From Pseudomonas sp. N3-W (GTDB taxonomy: Bacteria > Pseudomonadota > Gammaproteobacteria > Pseudomonadales > Pseudomonadaceae), in the NCBI RefSeq assembly GCF_024970185.1, contig NZ_CP103965.1:5537001-5601000 (forward strand): DNA of 64,000 bases, written 5' to 3'. Position 1 is the first letter of the stretch. Every line of letters starts with the position of its first letter. The notes under the pieces are model-generated. The model had not been told where the DNA came from. It saw nothing but the letters and a program-made list of their open reading frames with translations, and ran no database searches. The translations under genes and the position numbers were made by a program. Shown here one piece after another: positions 237-7,285 of this stretch.

Positions 237-644
237 TCATCGATAAAGAGACAGTATCGCAGCGAGACTGGCTGACTTTTCGTCGCCGTCACCCTGCAAA
301 ACGTACACAGTGTTTTTGGTTTCAAAGAGAAAGCCATCTTGGAATGAAATGGCCATGGTGCTGCGTACCCAATTTCCGTAATCGAAGCGTCCTCGGCTGT
401 CCAGGATCACTTTTTCGGCGAAAACAAAGAGCGGTAGGTGGCCATGAACGTGGATTTTGGTGAGATCCCCATCGCTCGCTATCGCGCGCACGATCGTCCA
501 CTGCTGGACGATGCAAAAGCCTTTGTTTGGGAAGCGGGTCTGCGCGATTTGAATTAGCGCTTCTTGGCTTTCTCCAGATCCAGAGCGCGACTCTCCAGTG
601 GTGGAGAGGAGCTCGCTGGCTGCTTGGATTTCTTCGAACTCCAT
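237..644 (-). CDS. Hypothetical protein, DUF6957-like
   Basis: The frame encodes 135 residues with a soluble composition. It starts at ATG 644 behind GACGGGAATGAAGC. The C-terminal two thirds (about residues 45-135) has the pattern VILDSRGRF, NWVRSTMAISF, GFLFETKNTVYVL, which I recall from small Pseudomonas proteins annotated DUF6957; that name is from memory and not verified. No catalytic motif, signal peptide or membrane segment is visible. It precedes the partial gene at 1-194 on the same strand. The pair sits in the accessory region left of the recombinase trio, so it may be mobile cargo. Function unknown. Confidence 0.6.
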   Translation of the reverse strand: MEFEEIQAASELLSTTGESRSGSGESQEALIQIAQTRFPNKGFCIVQQWTIVRAIASDGDLTKIHVHGHLPLFVFAEKVILDSRGRFDYGNWVRSTMAISFQDGFLFETKNTVYVLQGDGDEKSASLAAILSLYR

Positions 645-831: not shown

Positions 832-1299
832 ATGTCTCTCAGCGAAGCATTTGCGGTCGTTATCCGGGCCTTGAGACAGAATTCAGGAATGTCCCAGGAC
901 GACCTATCTTTACTTGATCGCTCTTATCTGAGTCGCGTGGAGCGCGGTAAGGGGAACGTTTCGATCGAAATGCTCTTGAAAATTTCAAAAATGCTGGACG
1001 CTGAGCCGACTGTTCTAATGCTCCTAACAACTTCTTTGCTTTCTGAGGAGGCGACAGATGTGGCGTTGGAGCGGATCTCGAGGAAGCTAGAGACGCTGAA
1101 AGAGACTGGTGTGATCGAGCTGATCTCCAGCGGCGGTAGGCCACGCCAACATGGGCGACCTTCCAACCTCGCTGCAAGTGAAAGACTAAAACTTGCTCCA
1201 CAGCTGAAGCAAAAAGGCCTATCTAATTCAGAGATAGCTCGAGAATTGGACGTTTCTAAGTCAACGGTACAACGGCATCTAGCCAAGGCTCCTCATTAA
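832..1299 (+). CDS. XRE-family regulator with C-terminal resolvase-type HTH
   Basis: The protein has 155 residues and two DNA-binding regions. Residues about 5-65 form a Cro/CI-type helix-turn-helix (IRALRQNSGMSQDDL, then DRSYLSRVERGKGNVS), with the usual R-x-E-x-G turn. Residues about 105-150 match the resolvase/Hin-type HTH (GRPSNLAASERLKLA, then GLSNSEIARELDVSKSTV). The middle looks helical. ATG 832 follows a purine-rich GTAGAGGATCATAA. Many XRE regulators in Pseudomonas islands have this two-part plan; they usually act as autoregulators or control neighbouring cargo. The gene is divergent from the small genes at 1-644, and the gap at 645-831 could hold a shared control region. Target unknown. 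Confidence 0.8.
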   Translation: MSLSEAFAVVIRALRQNSGMSQDDLSLLDRSYLSRVERGKGNVSIEMLLKISKMLDAEPTVLMLLTTSLLSEEATDVALERISRKLETLKETGVIELISSGGRPRQHGRPSNLAASERLKLAPQLKQKGLSNSEIARELDVSKSTVQRHLAKAPH

Positions 1300-1490
1300 T
1301 GGTAATCGCTAAAATTACCAATATGATGATCTACCTCTCAGGCACGCTTCCTCTCCACTTGACCTCTTCACTGAGCTCTCAATCCACAGTGCATGCAGGA
1401 TGGCGATCACACACTTATTGAACCGGGAACTACCGAGCAAAACGATTTCTGGACATAAGGCGCATCATTTTCTTTAAAGTCAGTTTGTGG

Positions 1491-1646
1491 GTGGGCAAAG
1501 AGCTGAAAAAGAGGCCTCCGGGCAAGCCTGTCAATACCAAGAATGCCGATGCAGTGAGAGAGCTGAAAGCTTTAGGATTGAGTCAGTCAGAGGTAGCACA
1601 CAAGCTCGGATTGGCTAGATCAACTGTACGTCGGTATTGGCAGTGA
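1491..1646 (+). CDS. Small resolvase-type HTH protein or gene remnant
   Basis: A short plus-strand frame with a possible GTG start encodes 51 residues. Its last 40 (GKPVNTKNADAV, then GLSQSEVAHKLGLARSTVRR) align with the C-terminal HTH of the XRE protein 200 bases upstream. The GRP/GKP lead, the spacing and the S-EVA-KL-ARSTV recognition helix are all kept. It has no N-terminal XRE domain, and the frame is also open upstream of the GTG. It is either a miniature DNA-binding protein or the surviving tail of a duplicated regulator or resolvase. The rest of 1300-1721 shows no other gene. Confidence 0.35.
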   Translation: MGKELKKRPPGKPVNTKNADAVRELKALGLSQSEVAHKLGLARSTVRRYWQ

Positions 1647-1721
1647 ACCCCGTACGGCTGAGTACACATAAGCGTCTACAGTAAGACACCATCAACCTCC
1701 TGATAATAGAGGGGGTTATGT

Positions 1722-1968
1722 TCAGGTGATTAACATCTCGCCGAGACCAACCTGCCGACCAAATGCCTTCGGCGGCAGCGCGACCGCTTGTTTCACTGCA
1801 TCAATGTCCCCAACCAGAATCACCTGAACCTCTGCCCGTGAGGTGGCCGTGTAAATGAAGGTGCGATCCAGCACCCGCGATTTACGTATCGGCACAATCA
1901 CTCGCCGGAACTGGCTACCTTGGCCTTTGTGAACGGTGATCGCATACCCGTTGTCCGCTGGCCATGGG
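1722..1968 (-). pseudogene. C-terminal remnant of a RecD-like (UvrD_C_2) helicase
   Basis: The minus-strand frame carries the terminal helicase motifs of RecD/RecD2-type superfamily 1B enzymes: YAITVHKGQGSQF (motif V region) and DRTFIYTATSRAEVQ (motif VI), then the normal C-terminal tail and a stop. Only about 80 residues remain; the Walker A and B motifs and everything upstream are missing. The homologous frame begins within a few bases of the gmtX stop at 1969, so the helicase was cut at, or fused to, the edge of the recombinase trio. It has no start codon or ribosome-binding site of its own outside gmtX and is unlikely to function. Confidence 0.65.
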
Positions 1969-2631
1969 TCAGATTTCCTTGAGAACCTTCTTAATGGCAT
2001 TCACGTAGCCATGTTTGTAGATTTCGCGCATGTTTTCGTCCTTGACCTGGCCGGCTGCGCTGACAGTCCATTCCCGGTACTCAAAAAACTTGTCCGCAAT
2101 AGCCGCCTTCAGCGCTTCGACCTCCATGTCATTGAGGCTTGGTGCCTGCACGAGTTGTACAGCACCGCTTTCAACGGGCAGCTCGACTCGCTGTACGGGT
2201 CGCCTGTCGACAATTAGTTCGCTGTTCGCTTTGAGGGTATTAAGCTCATTACGAAAGCGGTTACGCTCGGCAATGATCTGACCAAAGATGGCTCGCATTG
2301 CGGGATCTGAGAGGCGCTCAAGCAGCTCGTAATCCTTCGGAACCCGGTTACCCTTGGCTAGCGGGTTGATAGGGGCTTTCATTGAAGCGCCTGCCTGAGC
2401 AGCCCATGCTTCGATGAGCTGCCGAAACACAAGTCCTGTTTTATTGCGAATGGTCTGGGCGCTAGGGCCTCCCTTTTGAGCCGAGAGGCGCGCAATTTCT
2501 GCTATCGAGAAATTCCGATCACCTGCTGCGTGCTGAACCTTCAGCACGGCATTTAGAACGCTTAGTGACTTCGCCTGTCGGGTTGAGGCTTGCGATTTGA
2601 GGTCTTCAAAGATCGCCTGAGCGTCGATCAT
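1969..2631 (-). CDS. gmtX: Gamma-mobile-trio protein GmtX
   Basis: This is a 220-residue soluble protein. Residues about 25-75 hold a helix-turn-helix-like segment (FSIAEIARLSAQKGGPSAQT, then IRNKTGLVFRQLIEAWAAQAG) that is characteristic of the GmtX family as I know it. A charged helical segment follows (LLERLSDPAMRAIFGQIIAERNR-type), and the tail has an EYREW motif. ATG 2631 overlaps the gmtZ stop by four bases (ATGA), so translation is coupled. Its role in GMT transposition is not known; a DNA-binding accessory or target-selection factor is my inference. Its stop falls at the junction with the truncated RecD-like helicase. Confidence 0.8.
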   Translation of the reverse strand: MIDAQAIFEDLKSQASTRQAKSLSVLNAVLKVQHAAGDRNFSIAEIARLSAQKGGPSAQTIRNKTGLVFRQLIEAWAAQAGASMKAPINPLAKGNRVPKDYELLERLSDPAMRAIFGQIIAERNRFRNELNTLKANSELIVDRRPVQRVELPVESGAVQLVQAPSLNDMEVEALKAAIADKFFEYREWTVSAAGQVKDENMREIYKHGYVNAIKKVLKEI

Positions 2632-5243
2632 GGCCTGACCTCCAAGGTGGGTTTCGATGATGTGGAGATCAGCTCAGACAATTTGATTACCGGGCCCTGA
2701 TACATCTCTTCTAGGGCCTTGATGCCTTCGGGAAGCAACTTCATGTGTCGCCCGGTTTCTAGCGCCCCAGAGATGTAGGTGAAGCCTTCTAGCTGATCGT
2801 TTGGCGATGCTTTGCGTGCCATTGCTCGCATCATGGCATTGCCGGCAATCAGCTGCATGTGCTCGTCCATCTGCATGAAAAGCGGCGCGTAGCCATTGCG
2901 CATCAGAACGTTATTAAGGACTCGTGAGCGCTTTTCGATGGCCGGCGTCTTGCGGACGTCATCAGCTAGGTCAGGATAGAGCTCTGCGTCTTCACAGATT
3001 TGGGCCAATTGCAGAAGCTCTGAACTGACTTCAATGAGGCTGATCGGCTGATGAATGTCCTGCAAGCTGCCGACAGCCACGAGCTTGGTGGAGTTGTCGC
3101 CTTCGGCGCGGCCTTCTTCAATTGCAATTAGGCGAGCGATCAATTGAAAGGTAGCAATCATGTCTTTGGCATATTGATCGGCGAGGACAATTTGCTTCTC
3201 ATAGCGCCGTTCCGCCTCTTGCAATTCATGCAGCTGTAGAAACGGGCGACCCTCTTCCGTTGCCAGATAACGAGCATCAAGCAACACGTCTCGTACCGTC
3301 TCGTGCTCAACAGCCAGGTTGGCGGCCATTGATGCTTTATAGCTCTGGTTATTGAACTGTGCTCGTAACGCATCCAGATACCGTGCGTCGGTAGCAAGCC
3401 AGCGGCAACGAGTGCAATTTTCTGGGCCATTAGGCACCGGGCCAAATACCGCCCCCCCGGACGAAGTTAAGAGTTCACCGCCATTCCAGCAGCCGCCAAC
3501 ACTCCCCATTTCATTCGACCTAGCGGAGTTGCCACCGACCAGGCAAATGCCAACATGGCGATGCTCCCAACCAACTGGATTTCGGTTCGCGAGGGCAGCC
3601 TCCAGAGATTGCTCGTCACGATAGGCAACCTTGCTCTTTATCTGCCGCATGTCCGCATCGCGCAGGTAGGTGCGCAAGCTGTCTGCTTGCGCTGCCTCAA
3701 CTCTGAGAGTCGCCTCATCCAGCGCCTGAGTCATCTTGGCGGGGGTCGGCTTGATGTAGTAGAGCGTCATAATCAGTCGCGAATGCCCGGCAAGGAGTTT
3801 GGATAGTGCTGCCGCCGGAACTTGGCCATCCATTGCAAAACAGGTTAGTAAGGACACGCGAAGGCTGTGCAGGGGGAACTCAGTAGCTGTCTTTTGGAGG
3901 GTATAACCCTCTCCGTAGTCCTTCACAAACCGAAGTCTAGTGCCGTCACTGAGGGTCTGCCCACGTGATGCCACTCGGTCTTCCAGGGTAAAAAGGAGCC
4001 GATACCACAGATTATCAACACTAGTTCTCGAGATAGGTTTTAAACGATTCTTTGCGTTTGCTCTGCCATCGCGGAACAAGAAACAGATGGCCCCCATATC
4101 GCGCTTTTGCTGCTCCGATTTGGCAAAGCCAAAATGCTTGACCTCTAATTCTGTGCATGGCGTTGGGTGATCGATGGGATTGTATTTCTCCTGCCAGTTC
4201 CGCAGCTTTTCTAACCAGTGCAATACTTCGGCATGCTGCCAAGGGATGGTATAGCCACGCTCGCGCTCGTCTTTGTTCTGATCAGCGGTTTTATTGGTGT
4301 TAACGAAAAGACCTGTCATAACTTCGCCGGTATCAGGGCTTTGAATACGACGGAATATCCCACGGCTCCAAGGGTTTTTTTCGCTACCATTTTTAAATGA
4401 GTGGCGCTGATTGATTGTCCATCCACCTTTTTCGTACCGCCAGGTATCAGCTTCACCTGAGTCGAGAAAGCGAACCTGGTAGGTGCGTAGCGGAAGGTGC
4501 AGTTTGACCAATAGTGTCATCGCGCCAACGGGCGACCAGAGTTCGTGAATTTGGACTTGCTTAGGCTTTTTATTAACCCTGCGCAACACGGTACGCACCC
4601 GCCAGACACAATCGGGATCGTTAGGATCTATCAGCAAAGGATCGACCTCGAACCAGTCGCCGCTTTTTATTGCAGATAGACCATTGACTCGATTTTGTCC
4701 GCTAGCCAGATGTGCCCAATTCCAGTCTCTGAAATTGCCAAAAGGTCGAGGGCATAGGATCTGTCGTAATTCCTTGATGTACGCATACGGCAGCGGGTTA
4801 TGCACTGACTCTGTATGATCAGCACCTCTTTTGCTGATCTTTTGAAATGGGTTATGCACCAACGGCATCATCTGGCCTTCATCGTTTGGTTCGGAGAAGT
4901 GCTCAGTAATCACCCAGTTGATTAGGTTAAAAATATCATTATTTTTTCGAGTGGCTGATACTTGATGAGGGTCAAAAGCTAAGCTTTCAAGACTTGGCAG
5001 CAAGCGTTGTCTGCCTGCTTGAAACAAAGAAGCGGGTTGATGTCCATTAGGTATTTTTCGCAGATAATTCAATGCAAAGATACTCATTGAATTCAGCTTG
5101 GTATTAATGCCTTGCTGCTGAGTCTTCAACCAACCTGAAAAAAACGCTCGCCATTCTTCCCATTGCTCTCCATGGTCTCGCGTTAGCCAGGAAAAAGTCA
5201 TATCGCTGGCGCGACCATTTTGTTTGCGGTTGCTCGTCCCCAT
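2628..5243 (-). CDS. gmtZ: Gamma-mobile-trio integrase GmtZ
   Basis: The 871-residue protein shows a degenerate tyrosine-recombinase core at about residues 400-520: HSLRVSLLTCFAMDG gives the H-x-x-R box and LLAGHSRLIMTLYYIKP gives the late His and the presumed nucleophile Tyr. A C-terminal third of about 300 residues contains four cysteines (GIC, GGC, then CTRC), which could form a zinc-binding site. Such a long second recombinase is the hallmark of the trio. ATG 5243 follows GGGAAG at good spacing, two bases after the gmtY stop; a GTG at 5249 that overlaps the gmtY stop is the alternative. It presumably acts with GmtY in excision and integration of the island. Confidence 0.8.
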   Translation of the reverse strand: MGTSNRKQNGRASDMTFSWLTRDHGEQWEEWRAFFSGWLKTQQQGINTKLNSMSIFALNYLRKIPNGHQPASLFQAGRQRLLPSLESLAFDPHQVSATRKNNDIFNLINWVITEHFSEPNDEGQMMPLVHNPFQKISKRGADHTESVHNPLPYAYIKELRQILCPRPFGNFRDWNWAHLASGQNRVNGLSAIKSGDWFEVDPLLIDPNDPDCVWRVRTVLRRVNKKPKQVQIHELWSPVGAMTLLVKLHLPLRTYQVRFLDSGEADTWRYEKGGWTINQRHSFKNGSEKNPWSRGIFRRIQSPDTGEVMTGLFVNTNKTADQNKDERERGYTIPWQHAEVLHWLEKLRNWQEKYNPIDHPTPCTELEVKHFGFAKSEQQKRDMGAICFLFRDGRANAKNRLKPISRTSVDNLWYRLLFTLEDRVASRGQTLSDGTRLRFVKDYGEGYTLQKTATEFPLHSLRVSLLTCFAMDGQVPAAALSKLLAGHSRLIMTLYYIKPTPAKMTQALDEATLRVEAAQADSLRTYLRDADMRQIKSKVAYRDEQSLEAALANRNPVGWEHRHVGICLVGGNSARSNEMGSVGGCWNGGELLTSSGGAVFGPVPNGPENCTRCRWLATDARYLDALRAQFNNQSYKASMAANLAVEHETVRDVLLDARYLATEEGRPFLQLHELQEAERRYEKQIVLADQYAKDMIATFQLIARLIAIEEGRAEGDNSTKLVAVGSLQDIHQPISLIEVSSELLQLAQICEDAELYPDLADDVRKTPAIEKRSRVLNNVLMRNGYAPLFMQMDEHMQLIAGNAMMRAMARKASPNDQLEGFTYISGALETGRHMKLLPEGIKALEEMYQGPVIKLSELISTSSKPTLEVRP

Positions 5244-5245
5244 GA

Positions 5246-6712
5246 TCACATCTTCCCGAGTCTGGCGTTTGGCCCCGATAGCAGACCTTGTGGATCAATG
5301 TCTTCGAATCCTGTCTTCATCAGCTCATCCCAATTGCTGAGGTTCTGAACCAGCCGGCTATCTGTTGGATTTTCATCTAGGCGCTTACTCGCCTGATTCA
5401 GTGCTTGGTTCACATCAGCTATTCCGGGAGCCGTGTAGACGGCCTGGGACTCTAGTGATGAGTGGTGCAAAGCTTTCTTGCGTATCAGCGGATCAACACC
5501 TGCCCGAGTTAATCTTCGGCCAAAGGCATGGCGATGGCTGTGTGGCGAGCGTCCCTCAGCTTTGGAGGTGCTTTGACCAATGCGAGCCATCGCAGCTGCG
5601 TAGTTCTTGTTGAACGCATTCAGCGTGTAGGGTTGACCCAGATAGTCCTGTTCATAGGAAACGAATGCATAAGGGTGATGGCGGTCGATGCTCGCGAGGT
5701 AAAACAGATGCTCTTTCCAGAGTTTCAGGAACAATCGACCAAAGTCAGACGGAAACCAGTGCAACTGGATGTAGTAGTCTCTGTGATCATGCATTCGGAC
5801 TTTCCAGCCAACAGCTTTGGTGCCCCTAAACTTGTTACGCGGAGCAAGGGCATGGTTTTCTCTTAGGTATGCGGAGCGACTAGTCTTCCCTGTACGACTT
5901 TTCCAGTTATCCGGCGCCTTACCGTCTTCGGGATGGTAGACACGAACCAGCGCCTTTTTCGGGTCGTGCGGGTCATGGAGCACATCCTGTACCCACAGAT
6001 GCAAAGGCTCGCTTTCGCGCAAGCCTGCGCCATGCATCATCATCGTGATGAGCTGGTCGCGAACAGCGCAGCGGCGATCCTGTGCGCCGCCTACCCCCTC
6101 CAAATAGAATCGTTCGAATAATCGCTCGGGAAAGGCAATGGCATCATCTTCGGTCTTGCTCAGCCTGCGCCTACCCCTGACATTGCGCGCATTTCGGACG
6201 GTTTCGCTGACCGTTTTGTCCTTGATGTGACCGAGGAAATCATTCTGGTTGCGGCGATACCAAGCGGCATAATTCAGGCGCTGGTCGTAGCTGTTAGCGG
6301 TCACTAGGGGGTTCATGTGCTGACCGCCCTCATGGTCAGCCAAGTAATCGGTCAGCCCCTTGAGGGCATTGAGATGTCGATTGGCCATGCGGGTACTGGC
6401 TGGTATCCAGTAAAGGCCTGACGGATCAAGGCCGTCATCGCCAACGGTACCGGTAAAAAGACGGGACGCGAATGTCTGAAAGAGCGTGGCGGGATCTGAA
6501 AAGTTTTGCTGATTGGCCTCCATGTACTCAAGCAGCATCTTCGTCGCGATGACGACATTGTGTTGCCAGGCAAGACTGCGCCCAGTTGTTTTGTTCAGCA
6601 GGTAGCCCAAAAGAGGCAGGACAACTCCTTTCTCGGTCAGGAGGACTGGAATTTCACTCCGATACCCCGAGTCGTCGACCACGACCTTTGCATATGCATC
6701 CACTGCCGGCAT
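5246..6712 (-). CDS. gmtY: Gamma-mobile-trio tyrosine recombinase GmtY
   Basis: This 488-residue tyrosine site-specific recombinase has a complete catalytic set in order: Arg in HGAGLRESE (about residue 232), the H-S-H-R box (about 391-394), a His pair in ALHHSSLESQ (about 416) and the Tyr in AVYTAP (about 426). The N-terminal 200 residues should hold the core-binding domain. I place the start at ATG 6712, behind GAGGA seven bases upstream. The longer frame beginning at TTG 6769 would place the start codon inside a clear -35 box. It leads the gmtY-gmtZ-gmtX operon. Confidence 0.8.
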   Translation of the reverse strand: MPAVDAYAKVVVDDSGYRSEIPVLLTEKGVVLPLLGYLLNKTTGRSLAWQHNVVIATKMLLEYMEANQQNFSDPATLFQTFASRLFTGTVGDDGLDPSGLYWIPASTRMANRHLNALKGLTDYLADHEGGQHMNPLVTANSYDQRLNYAAWYRRNQNDFLGHIKDKTVSETVRNARNVRGRRRLSKTEDDAIAFPERLFERFYLEGVGGAQDRRCAVRDQLITMMMHGAGLRESEPLHLWVQDVLHDPHDPKKALVRVYHPEDGKAPDNWKSRTGKTSRSAYLRENHALAPRNKFRGTKAVGWKVRMHDHRDYYIQLHWFPSDFGRLFLKLWKEHLFYLASIDRHHPYAFVSYEQDYLGQPYTLNAFNKNYAAAMARIGQSTSKAEGRSPHSHRHAFGRRLTRAGVDPLIRKKALHHSSLESQAVYTAPGIADVNQALNQASKRLDENPTDSRLVQNLSNWDELMKTGFEDIDPQGLLSGPNARLGKM

Positions 6713-6740
6713 TAAGCGATCCTCGCCATAAAGTCCATTT

Positions 6741-6769
6741 AGTATTGTTGGTACATTTAGAGCTGTCAA
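6741..6769 (-). promoter_or_regulatory. Sigma70-type promoter for gmtYZX
   Basis: On the minus strand TTGACA (6764-6769) is followed by a 17-base spacer and AATACT (6741-6746), a four-of-six match to TATAAT. Transcription would start about 20-25 bases before the gmtY ATG at 6712. The spacer contains ATGTACCAA, which recurs in the same orientation at 6824-6832 upstream. Confidence 0.55.
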
Positions 6770-6787
6770 ATACGATAATTTCGTTGC

Positions 6788-6816
6788 AAAAAATAGCCCT
6801 CAAATCGAGGGCTATT
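6788..6816 (-). terminator. Rho-independent terminator after sspB
   Basis: A perfect 10-base-pair stem (6792-6801 with 6807-6816, five-base loop) is followed on the minus strand by a run of six T. It lies 56 bases past the sspB stop and just upstream of the gmtY promoter, so it insulates the recombinase genes from sspAB transcription. Confidence 0.8.
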
Positions 6817-6871
6817 AACAGTTTTGGTACATCCGTTTGCGCTGCAAAGAACTTTCGGATCGCCTTTTTTA

Positions 6872-7285
6872 TTACTTCACCACTTTCAAACTCGGTCGAC
6901 CGCTGGGACGCGGCGGCTCGCTATCGGGTGGCGGAAGATCATCATCCGGCTCAATCTCTTCCTCGTCCTCAAGGGGCGACTCCAGATCGAACACCATGCC
7001 CTGACCGTTCTCCCGGGCGTAAATGCCCAGGATCGAGGCGATAGGCACGTACAGGGTGTGCGGTACGCCACCGAAACGCCCTTCGAAGCTGACGGCTTCG
7101 TTGTCCATGTGCAAATGACGCACGGCTTGCGGCGAAACGTTCAGCACAATCTGTCCGTCACTGGCAAAACCTTGCGGCACCTGCACCGACGGATACTCGG
7201 AATTGACCAGCATGTGCGGGGTGCAATCGTTATCAACAATCCACTCGTAGAGCGCGCGGACCAGATAAGGTCGACTGGAGTTCAT
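6872..7285 (-). CDS. sspB: ClpXP protease specificity-enhancing factor SspB
   Basis: SspB is the adaptor that binds ssrA-tagged proteins from stalled ribosomes and delivers them to ClpXP. The 137 residues show the plan of the family: an N-terminal substrate-binding fold (SSRPYLVRALYEWI, VSPQAVRHLHMDNEAV, SFEGRFGG), an acidic flexible linker (about residues 105-120) and the short ClpX-docking tail ending PSLKVVK. It follows sspA by 16 bases on the same strand. The start at 7285 is preceded by a GGAG-type site. The gene marks the core-genome edge of the mobile island. Confidence 0.95.
   Translation of the reverse strand: MNSSRPYLVRALYEWIVDNDCTPHMLVNSEYPSVQVPQGFASDGQIVLNVSPQAVRHLHMDNEAVSFEGRFGGVPHTLYVPIASILGIYARENGQGMVFDLESPLEDEEEIEPDDDLPPPDSEPPRPSGRPSLKVVK

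Follow-up and report, generated by a model that had tools for sequence, protein, structure and literature searches.

A gamma-mobile-trio island of Pseudomonas sp. N3-W lies in the loop of the transcription terminator shared by a BON-domain gene and sspB

The DNA analysed here, referred to as the window, is a stretch of 64,000 nt (bases 5537001-5601000) of contig NZ_CP103965.1 from Pseudomonas sp. N3-W (assembly GCF_024970185.1), and it holds near its left edge the three recombinase-module genes of a gamma-mobile-trio (GMT) island. The window was cut from a single contig of 6,674,931 bases, so the sequence to the left of its first base could be read as well; positions are those of the window unless given as contig positions. 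In a first-pass annotation made from the sequence alone, three coupled minus-strand genes had been named gmtY, gmtZ and gmtX, and a profile search with the NCBIfam models placed all three above the NCBI curated cut-offs (GmtY 541.1 bits, cut-off 340; GmtZ 1009.9 bits, cut-off 600; GmtX 233.4 bits, cut-off 40). Their order, overlaps and coordinates also held: gmtX occupies 1969..2631, gmtZ, encoding a large integrase, 2628..5249, and gmtY, encoding a tyrosine recombinase, 5246..6715. Only the start of gmtY was revised. Its open reading frame (ORF) extends to 6769, where a TTG had been proposed as start codon, but this TTG coincides with a TTGACA box, and the ATG at 6715 (MPAVDAY...), matching the copy in the related genome G082, is more likely to be the start.

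GmtY residues R251, K323, H410, R413 and Y445 were conserved in all 35 aligned relatives, as were the tyrosine-recombinase residues H461, R464, H489 and Y498 of GmtZ in all 11 aligned relatives. The profiles of both proteins matched tyrosine recombinases of solved structure (XerA/XerC-like proteins and Tn1549 Int, with XerD also among the nearest). A structure model of GmtY (mean predicted local distance difference test score, pLDDT, of 80) matched Cre, Tn1549 Int, XerH and IntI4 with modest template-modelling scores, and the model of GmtZ was poor (mean pLDDT 60.6). Within GmtZ residues 569-616, following the catalytic domain, the cysteines C569, C587, C612 and C615 were invariant, which suggests a metal-binding module. 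The trio borders the island with gmtY as its outermost gene. The assignment of the region as a GMT island with predicted defence cargo is supported, as the first-pass annotation had it, and belongs to an already known kind.

The gene beside the trio, earlier taken for sspB, was identified as SspB; its reading frame (6872..7285, minus strand) is intact, and it is the terminator of this host gene that the island splits. The island runs from contig base 5512019 to 5543856 (window 6856), a length of 31,838 bases between the BON-domain gene and sspB, with its cargo end about 25 kb left of the window. When the two ends were compared, the left one was found to carry AATAAAAAAGGCGATCC and the right one the same sequence inverted, the two copies now 31.8 kb apart. 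The right half of the split host terminator (AATAAAAAAGGCGATCC, 6857..6873, minus strand) takes in the final two bases of the sspB stop codon, and the other half lies at contig 5512002-5512018. Between the right stem arm and the island stands GAAA (TTTC on the plus strand; 6853..6856, minus strand), which is likely the old terminator loop, followed by the gmtY-end core with the motif GTTCTTTGCAGCG...GTAC (6832..6852, minus strand). This core is an imperfect inverted repeat of the cargo-end core GCTCTTAACAGCAC, which reads from contig 5512023 onward. The gmtY-end junction is 141 bases upstream of the likely gmtY start.

The sspB loci were compared, with 1.5-kb flanks, in 29 of the 57 other matching genomes. 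In relatives the two arms stand back to back as AAAAAAGGCGATCC-NNNN-GGATCGCCTTTTTT, a two-way Rho-independent terminator common to the BON-domain gene and sspB. Under a fixed rule, a terminator hairpin abutted sspB in 17 of the 29 relatives, and a GmtY-like frame was present in none of the 29 loci; the possibility, raised in the first-pass annotation, that the same genes stand here in all relatives as an ancestral locus does not agree with this. Because the hairpin is intact in relatives and its arms flank both ends of the island, the island lies exactly in the loop of the BON/sspB terminator and separates its two stem arms.

A search of the genus found GmtY above the cut-off in 28 of 398 genomes. 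In the three closest relatives (78-86% identity) the gmtY end abuts another half-terminator, and the matching half was present at the cargo end of the five Pseudomonas islands whose cargo-side sequence was read (G204, G309, G082, G276 and G089). Split terminators were likewise seen at the islands of an IncC and an IncHI2 plasmid. In Vibrio alginolyticus, Providencia and pKAZ2, which were sought after the rule had been formed, the end motif was followed by the matching half in 3 of 3. Both arms were split in 11 of 11 islands with two ends located (Pseudomonas, Vibrio, IncC, IncHI2 and others). The island of G493 is the twelfth, known from its gmtY end and from intact hairpins in four relatives, which brings the total to 12 insertions in 11 terminators. 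The one terminator used twice is that of N3-W (G000): the island of G204 (Pseudomonas akapageensis by record, L069) occupies the same BON/sspB terminator in the opposite orientation, although its ends are on two contigs, its arms were paired by eye and the closing base pair is mismatched. The contig of G587 stops before the cargo end, and the Pseudomonas mandelii record (L097) starts at the island end.

The contiguous stems formed by the arms measured 17 bp in G000, 11 in G309, 14 in G082, 13 in G276, 11 in G089, 9 in IncC and, after a register correction, 9 in IncHI2. Stems of 11 bp in Vibrio alginolyticus, 11 in Providencia and 12 in pKAZ2 were each maximised over 99 registers. Mismatched arm pairings averaged 1.55 bp and never exceeded 5 bp, and at least 8 bp was reached by 67 of 140,000 random pairs. 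Empty sites were found for G089 in two relatives (L190 and L191, both flanks aligned at 88-90%) and for G082 in one (L150, gmtY-side flank only), and on other plasmids that share the flanking genes the IncC and IncHI2 hairpins stand unbroken. A scan of a contig collection returned three relatives, at the same loci as three found otherwise. None of the viral contigs carried the protein, and their three pattern matches were not island ends. A class-wide search of 369 genomes returned only G000 at an E-value of 1e-100.

The gmtY end keeps the loop of the target (TTTA in G082, AACCAGT in G089, ATTTA in IncC and AAGTA in IncHI2), and other bases stand at the cargo end. The target loop was at the gmtY end in 4 of 4 judgeable sites, with a spacer length of 5-7 by reading. 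On the Escherichia coli plasmid pPEC414_4 (L112), upstream of a truncated gmtY, a gmtY end, CGAAG and a cargo end follow one another head to tail, as would be expected of a circular intermediate or a tandem. Four loci with near-identical GmtY (L073, L098, L100 and L101) have four different arms. The occurrence of near-identical GmtY at different sites and the head-to-tail joint bear only indirectly on whether the islands are actively mobile.

The island also brings terminators of its own. Just inside the gmtY end of the N3-W island is an inward-facing terminator, AATAGCCCTC-GAT-TTGAGGGCTATT followed by a T-run (6784..6816, minus strand), placed to stop transcripts from sspB. Immediately inside it and upstream of gmtY lies a promoter-like TTGACA-17-AATACT (6741..6769, minus strand), identified by consensus match only. 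Under a fixed rule, inward terminators were found within 170 bases at 22 of 24 island ends and at 2 of 4 further ends (24 of 28 together, with a weaker hairpin at the extreme end counted as positive in G493), compared with 2 of 420 interior windows and 3 of 420 shuffled ends; outward-facing terminators were found at 3 of the 28 ends. At the gmtY end the inward terminators begin about 40 bases into the island (63 in G276 and G089), at the cargo end about 84-124 bases. Several islands have a TTGACA-type promoter match after the end terminator, so gmtY would be shielded from host transcripts.

Tyrosine-recombinase islands mostly use a fixed sequence, often a tRNA gene. The N3-W island lies in the loop of the BON/sspB terminator, and related islands sit in the loops of other terminator hairpins, from which we infer that the recombinases recognise the hairpin and not a fixed sequence; that they choose the palindrome of the hairpin in this way is, in our judgement, quite probable. 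GmtY and GmtZ, likely with GmtX, would join a circular form of the island to the centre of the palindrome, exchanging about 6 bp asymmetrically in the manner of Tn554 and the strand-biased circularizing integrative elements (SE). The recombinases would recognise the palindrome either once it is extruded as a hairpin or through a pair of half-sites that flank the 6-bp centre. The end terminators would then take over the work of the split terminator and keep host transcripts out of gmtY, and the outcome would be an insertion that neither breaks a gene nor permits read-through. For the clade as a whole, we lean somewhat towards a target defined by shape, namely the loop of any intrinsic terminator, with the one terminator of the host traded for two inward-facing ones of the island; almost any part of a gammaproteobacterial genome or plasmid would then be open to such an element, whichever way it faced, with no gene broken and no read-through.

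The strongest competitor to fold recognition is that the recombinases bind plain double-stranded DNA, reading two half-sites of loose sequence, each a G+C-rich block beside an A/T tract, on either side of a 6-bp centre, and that the hairpin never folds. A G+C block does stand at the end of every arm and a T-run at that of nearly all, tyrosine recombinases normally use inverted half-sites, and XerH, a fold relative of GmtY, binds the palindromic difH. Yet the arms have little sequence in common (GGATCGCC, GGAGGTC, GGTCGCGG, GCCGGGGC, GGGCGC, GCTGGCC, GCAAGCTC and GGAGGGC), while pairing is kept in each, and we regard this account as a serious possibility that is the less probable of the two. 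Near-random insertion, with survivors only in harmless spots, would also yield insertions in terminators, which are dispensable intergenic places, but selection for harmlessness would not centre 12 of 12 insertions on a hairpin to within a base, and intergenic DNA outside hairpins is far commoner; we consider it very improbable. Scarcely credible, finally, is the idea that the inverted arms are terminal repeats belonging to the island, in spite of their repeat-like placement at both ends, since the same hairpins are intact in genomes that have no island and the arms differ between islands with near-identical GmtY.

Several observations weigh against recognition of terminator hairpins as a rule of the clade. 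The N3-W site itself is ambiguous as to which end keeps the target loop: its gmtY end has TTTC and its cargo end GGTT, and the site does not decide because both occur as loops in relatives (TTTC in L019, GGTT in L017). The registers of the first seven stems listed above, G000 to IncHI2, were set by eye. No clean empty site was found among 24 relatives for G276, nor among 24 for G309, where the flank is repeat-rich. A fixed half-terminator rule flagged 12 of 18 gmtY-end flanks (background 2.4-3.6%) and missed three proven sites. Four ends lack an inward terminator under the fixed rule, namely both ends of pKAZ2, the gmtY end of IncHI2 and the cargo end of Providencia. In a GmtY tree of 58 rows, from which the duplicate loci L080, L088 and L091 were left out, the 12 proven islands and four more known by the gmtY end only fell on one side of a 99/98 branch holding 28 rows. 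These 16 placed islands belong to two subclades of 19 and 4 rows, 23 rows together. Among the other seven, two rows represent a single decayed copy on a plasmid, an insertion sequence (IS) interrupts another, and a fourth is truncated by the end of the record. In Photobacterium damselae (L102), and likewise in the neighbouring Acinetobacter ursingii branch (L111), the outward sequences were not terminator-like.

Outside the two subclades no terminator site was seen, in a screen that was insensitive. When 29 islands with cargo-side sequence were screened blind for split arms, the true pair ranked first in 4 of 7 already-known islands. Shuffled flanks gave about the same number of hits, and little weight can therefore be put on the finding that none of the 20 more distant islands produced a clear hit. 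Islands L050 and L058 (in G239 and G274), both from a distant clade, interrupt, at the same place, a gene that reads as greB by eye, and these sites are not terminators. This suggests that the clade with greB insertions has another target rule, and distant GMT clades seem to differ in target.

The first-pass annotation had expected that the more interesting cargo might lie left of the first base of the window, and reading leftward indeed found predicted defence genes there (PADLOC, NCBIfam). The cargo is predicted to hold a type I restriction system (HsdM, HsdS and HsdR at 885.6, 288.7 and 512.3 bits in PADLOC) and a Lamassu-like set (LmuA, LmuC and LmuB at 209.6, 33.5 and 477.8 bits in PADLOC). 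The Lamassu-like proteins matched CTD7, MC3 and DUF3732 of ABC-3C systems in Pfam, and LmuA and LmuB had no match in NCBIfam. A protein kinase of defence type had mad6 and PD-T4-6 as its top PADLOC matches. A retron reverse transcriptase scored 749.4 bits with a Toprim-type model and 726.7 bits with the NCBIfam model of the retron Ec67 family (cut-off 450). An IS66 and an rve-type transposase also lie within the island. The cargo differs in sister islands, where a scan of 10 proteins found BovA in G276 and a RelA/SpoT-domain protein in G089, and the G309 island (L116), which occupies a different terminator, encodes a PifA-like NTPase, GajA and a retron III-A phosphoribosyltransferase.

Inside the window, the cargo includes a helix-turn-helix (HTH) protein with an HTH_3 match (832..1299, plus strand), a short ORF with an HTH domain match (1485..1646, plus strand) and a protein matching DUF6957 in Pfam (237..644, minus strand). 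The last of these closes a row of small minus-strand ORFs (contig 5535340-5537194 and window 237-644) in which it alone has a Pfam match and four have none; five small cargo proteins had no Pfam match. In the 10.7-kb sister island of G082 and in that of G204, a VPA1267-like gene and a RecD2-like helicase gene come after the trio. Comparison with these two showed that N3-W has lost the VPA1267-like gene and the remainder of the helicase, of which the last 74 C-terminal residues are left (1731..1952, minus strand). A 54-bp direct repeat (87%) of this helicase tail occurs just after gmtX (window 1716-1770) and near the cargo end (contig 5512161-5512214). It was rejected as an attachment-site repeat, being a remnant of the helicase tail that lies inside the true ends; its presence at both places suggests that an exchange at the helicase gene may have brought in the cargo. 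No tRNA gene was found within the 64-kb window, and a search with Rfam returned nothing at an E-value of 0.1 across the island and its flanks.

Mobile elements that resemble the GMT islands in one respect or another are compared here as far as the accessible parts of the cited texts allow. The transposase of IS1272 is of the DDE type and not a tyrosine recombinase. IS1272 targets inverted repeats of any sequence and replaces the stem-loop (PMC5678879). The GMT clade probably shares this kind of target, but its islands split the stem and keep both arms. Group IIC introns are ribozyme retroelements that insert after a terminator stem-loop (PMC7923331), unlike the GMT islands in the loop. SE and Tn554 have a 6-bp footprint in which the central bases of the target stay at the recombinase-gene end and the carried spacer at the other (PMC10214605, PMC5991714). 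They share with the GMT islands two or more tyrosine recombinases and imperfect inverted end repeats, and the GMT islands may have the same asymmetric footprint. The SE are set apart by their gene list, having four core genes (intA, tfp, intB and srap) where the GMT trio has three, and the bcp insertion site of Tn6283 was reported to lack inverted repeats (PMC5991714), in contrast to the terminator palindrome of the GMT target. In Tn916, terminator T1 near one element end was shown to insulate element genes from a host promoter (PMC11658703); in the GMT islands, terminators stand at both ends, the host terminator is split and insulation is predicted. In trio genes, border position, defence cargo and scattered presence, the N3-W island is like the GMT islands as we know them from the accessible part of PMC12039261, the NCBIfam models and general background. 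No statement of a terminator-loop target for GMT islands was found in the searchable texts, which do not include the original GMT description (Mahata et al. 2024), and the word "terminator" gave 0 hits in the searchable parts of PMC12039261, PMC1464126, PMC5991714, PMC5678879 and PMC9345347. As far as these texts go, the terminator-loop target and the proposed replacement of the terminator have not yet been described.

A hairpin target, present after hundreds of genes, would explain how one recombinase can serve many hosts and replicons. It would also supply an exact rule for locating both ends of a GMT island, and with them the limits of its defence cargo. It would likewise offer a simple test of whether a tyrosine recombinase other than that of the integron can read a folded site. 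The exchange of terminators, if real, would be a case of a mobile element that repays the host function it destroys.

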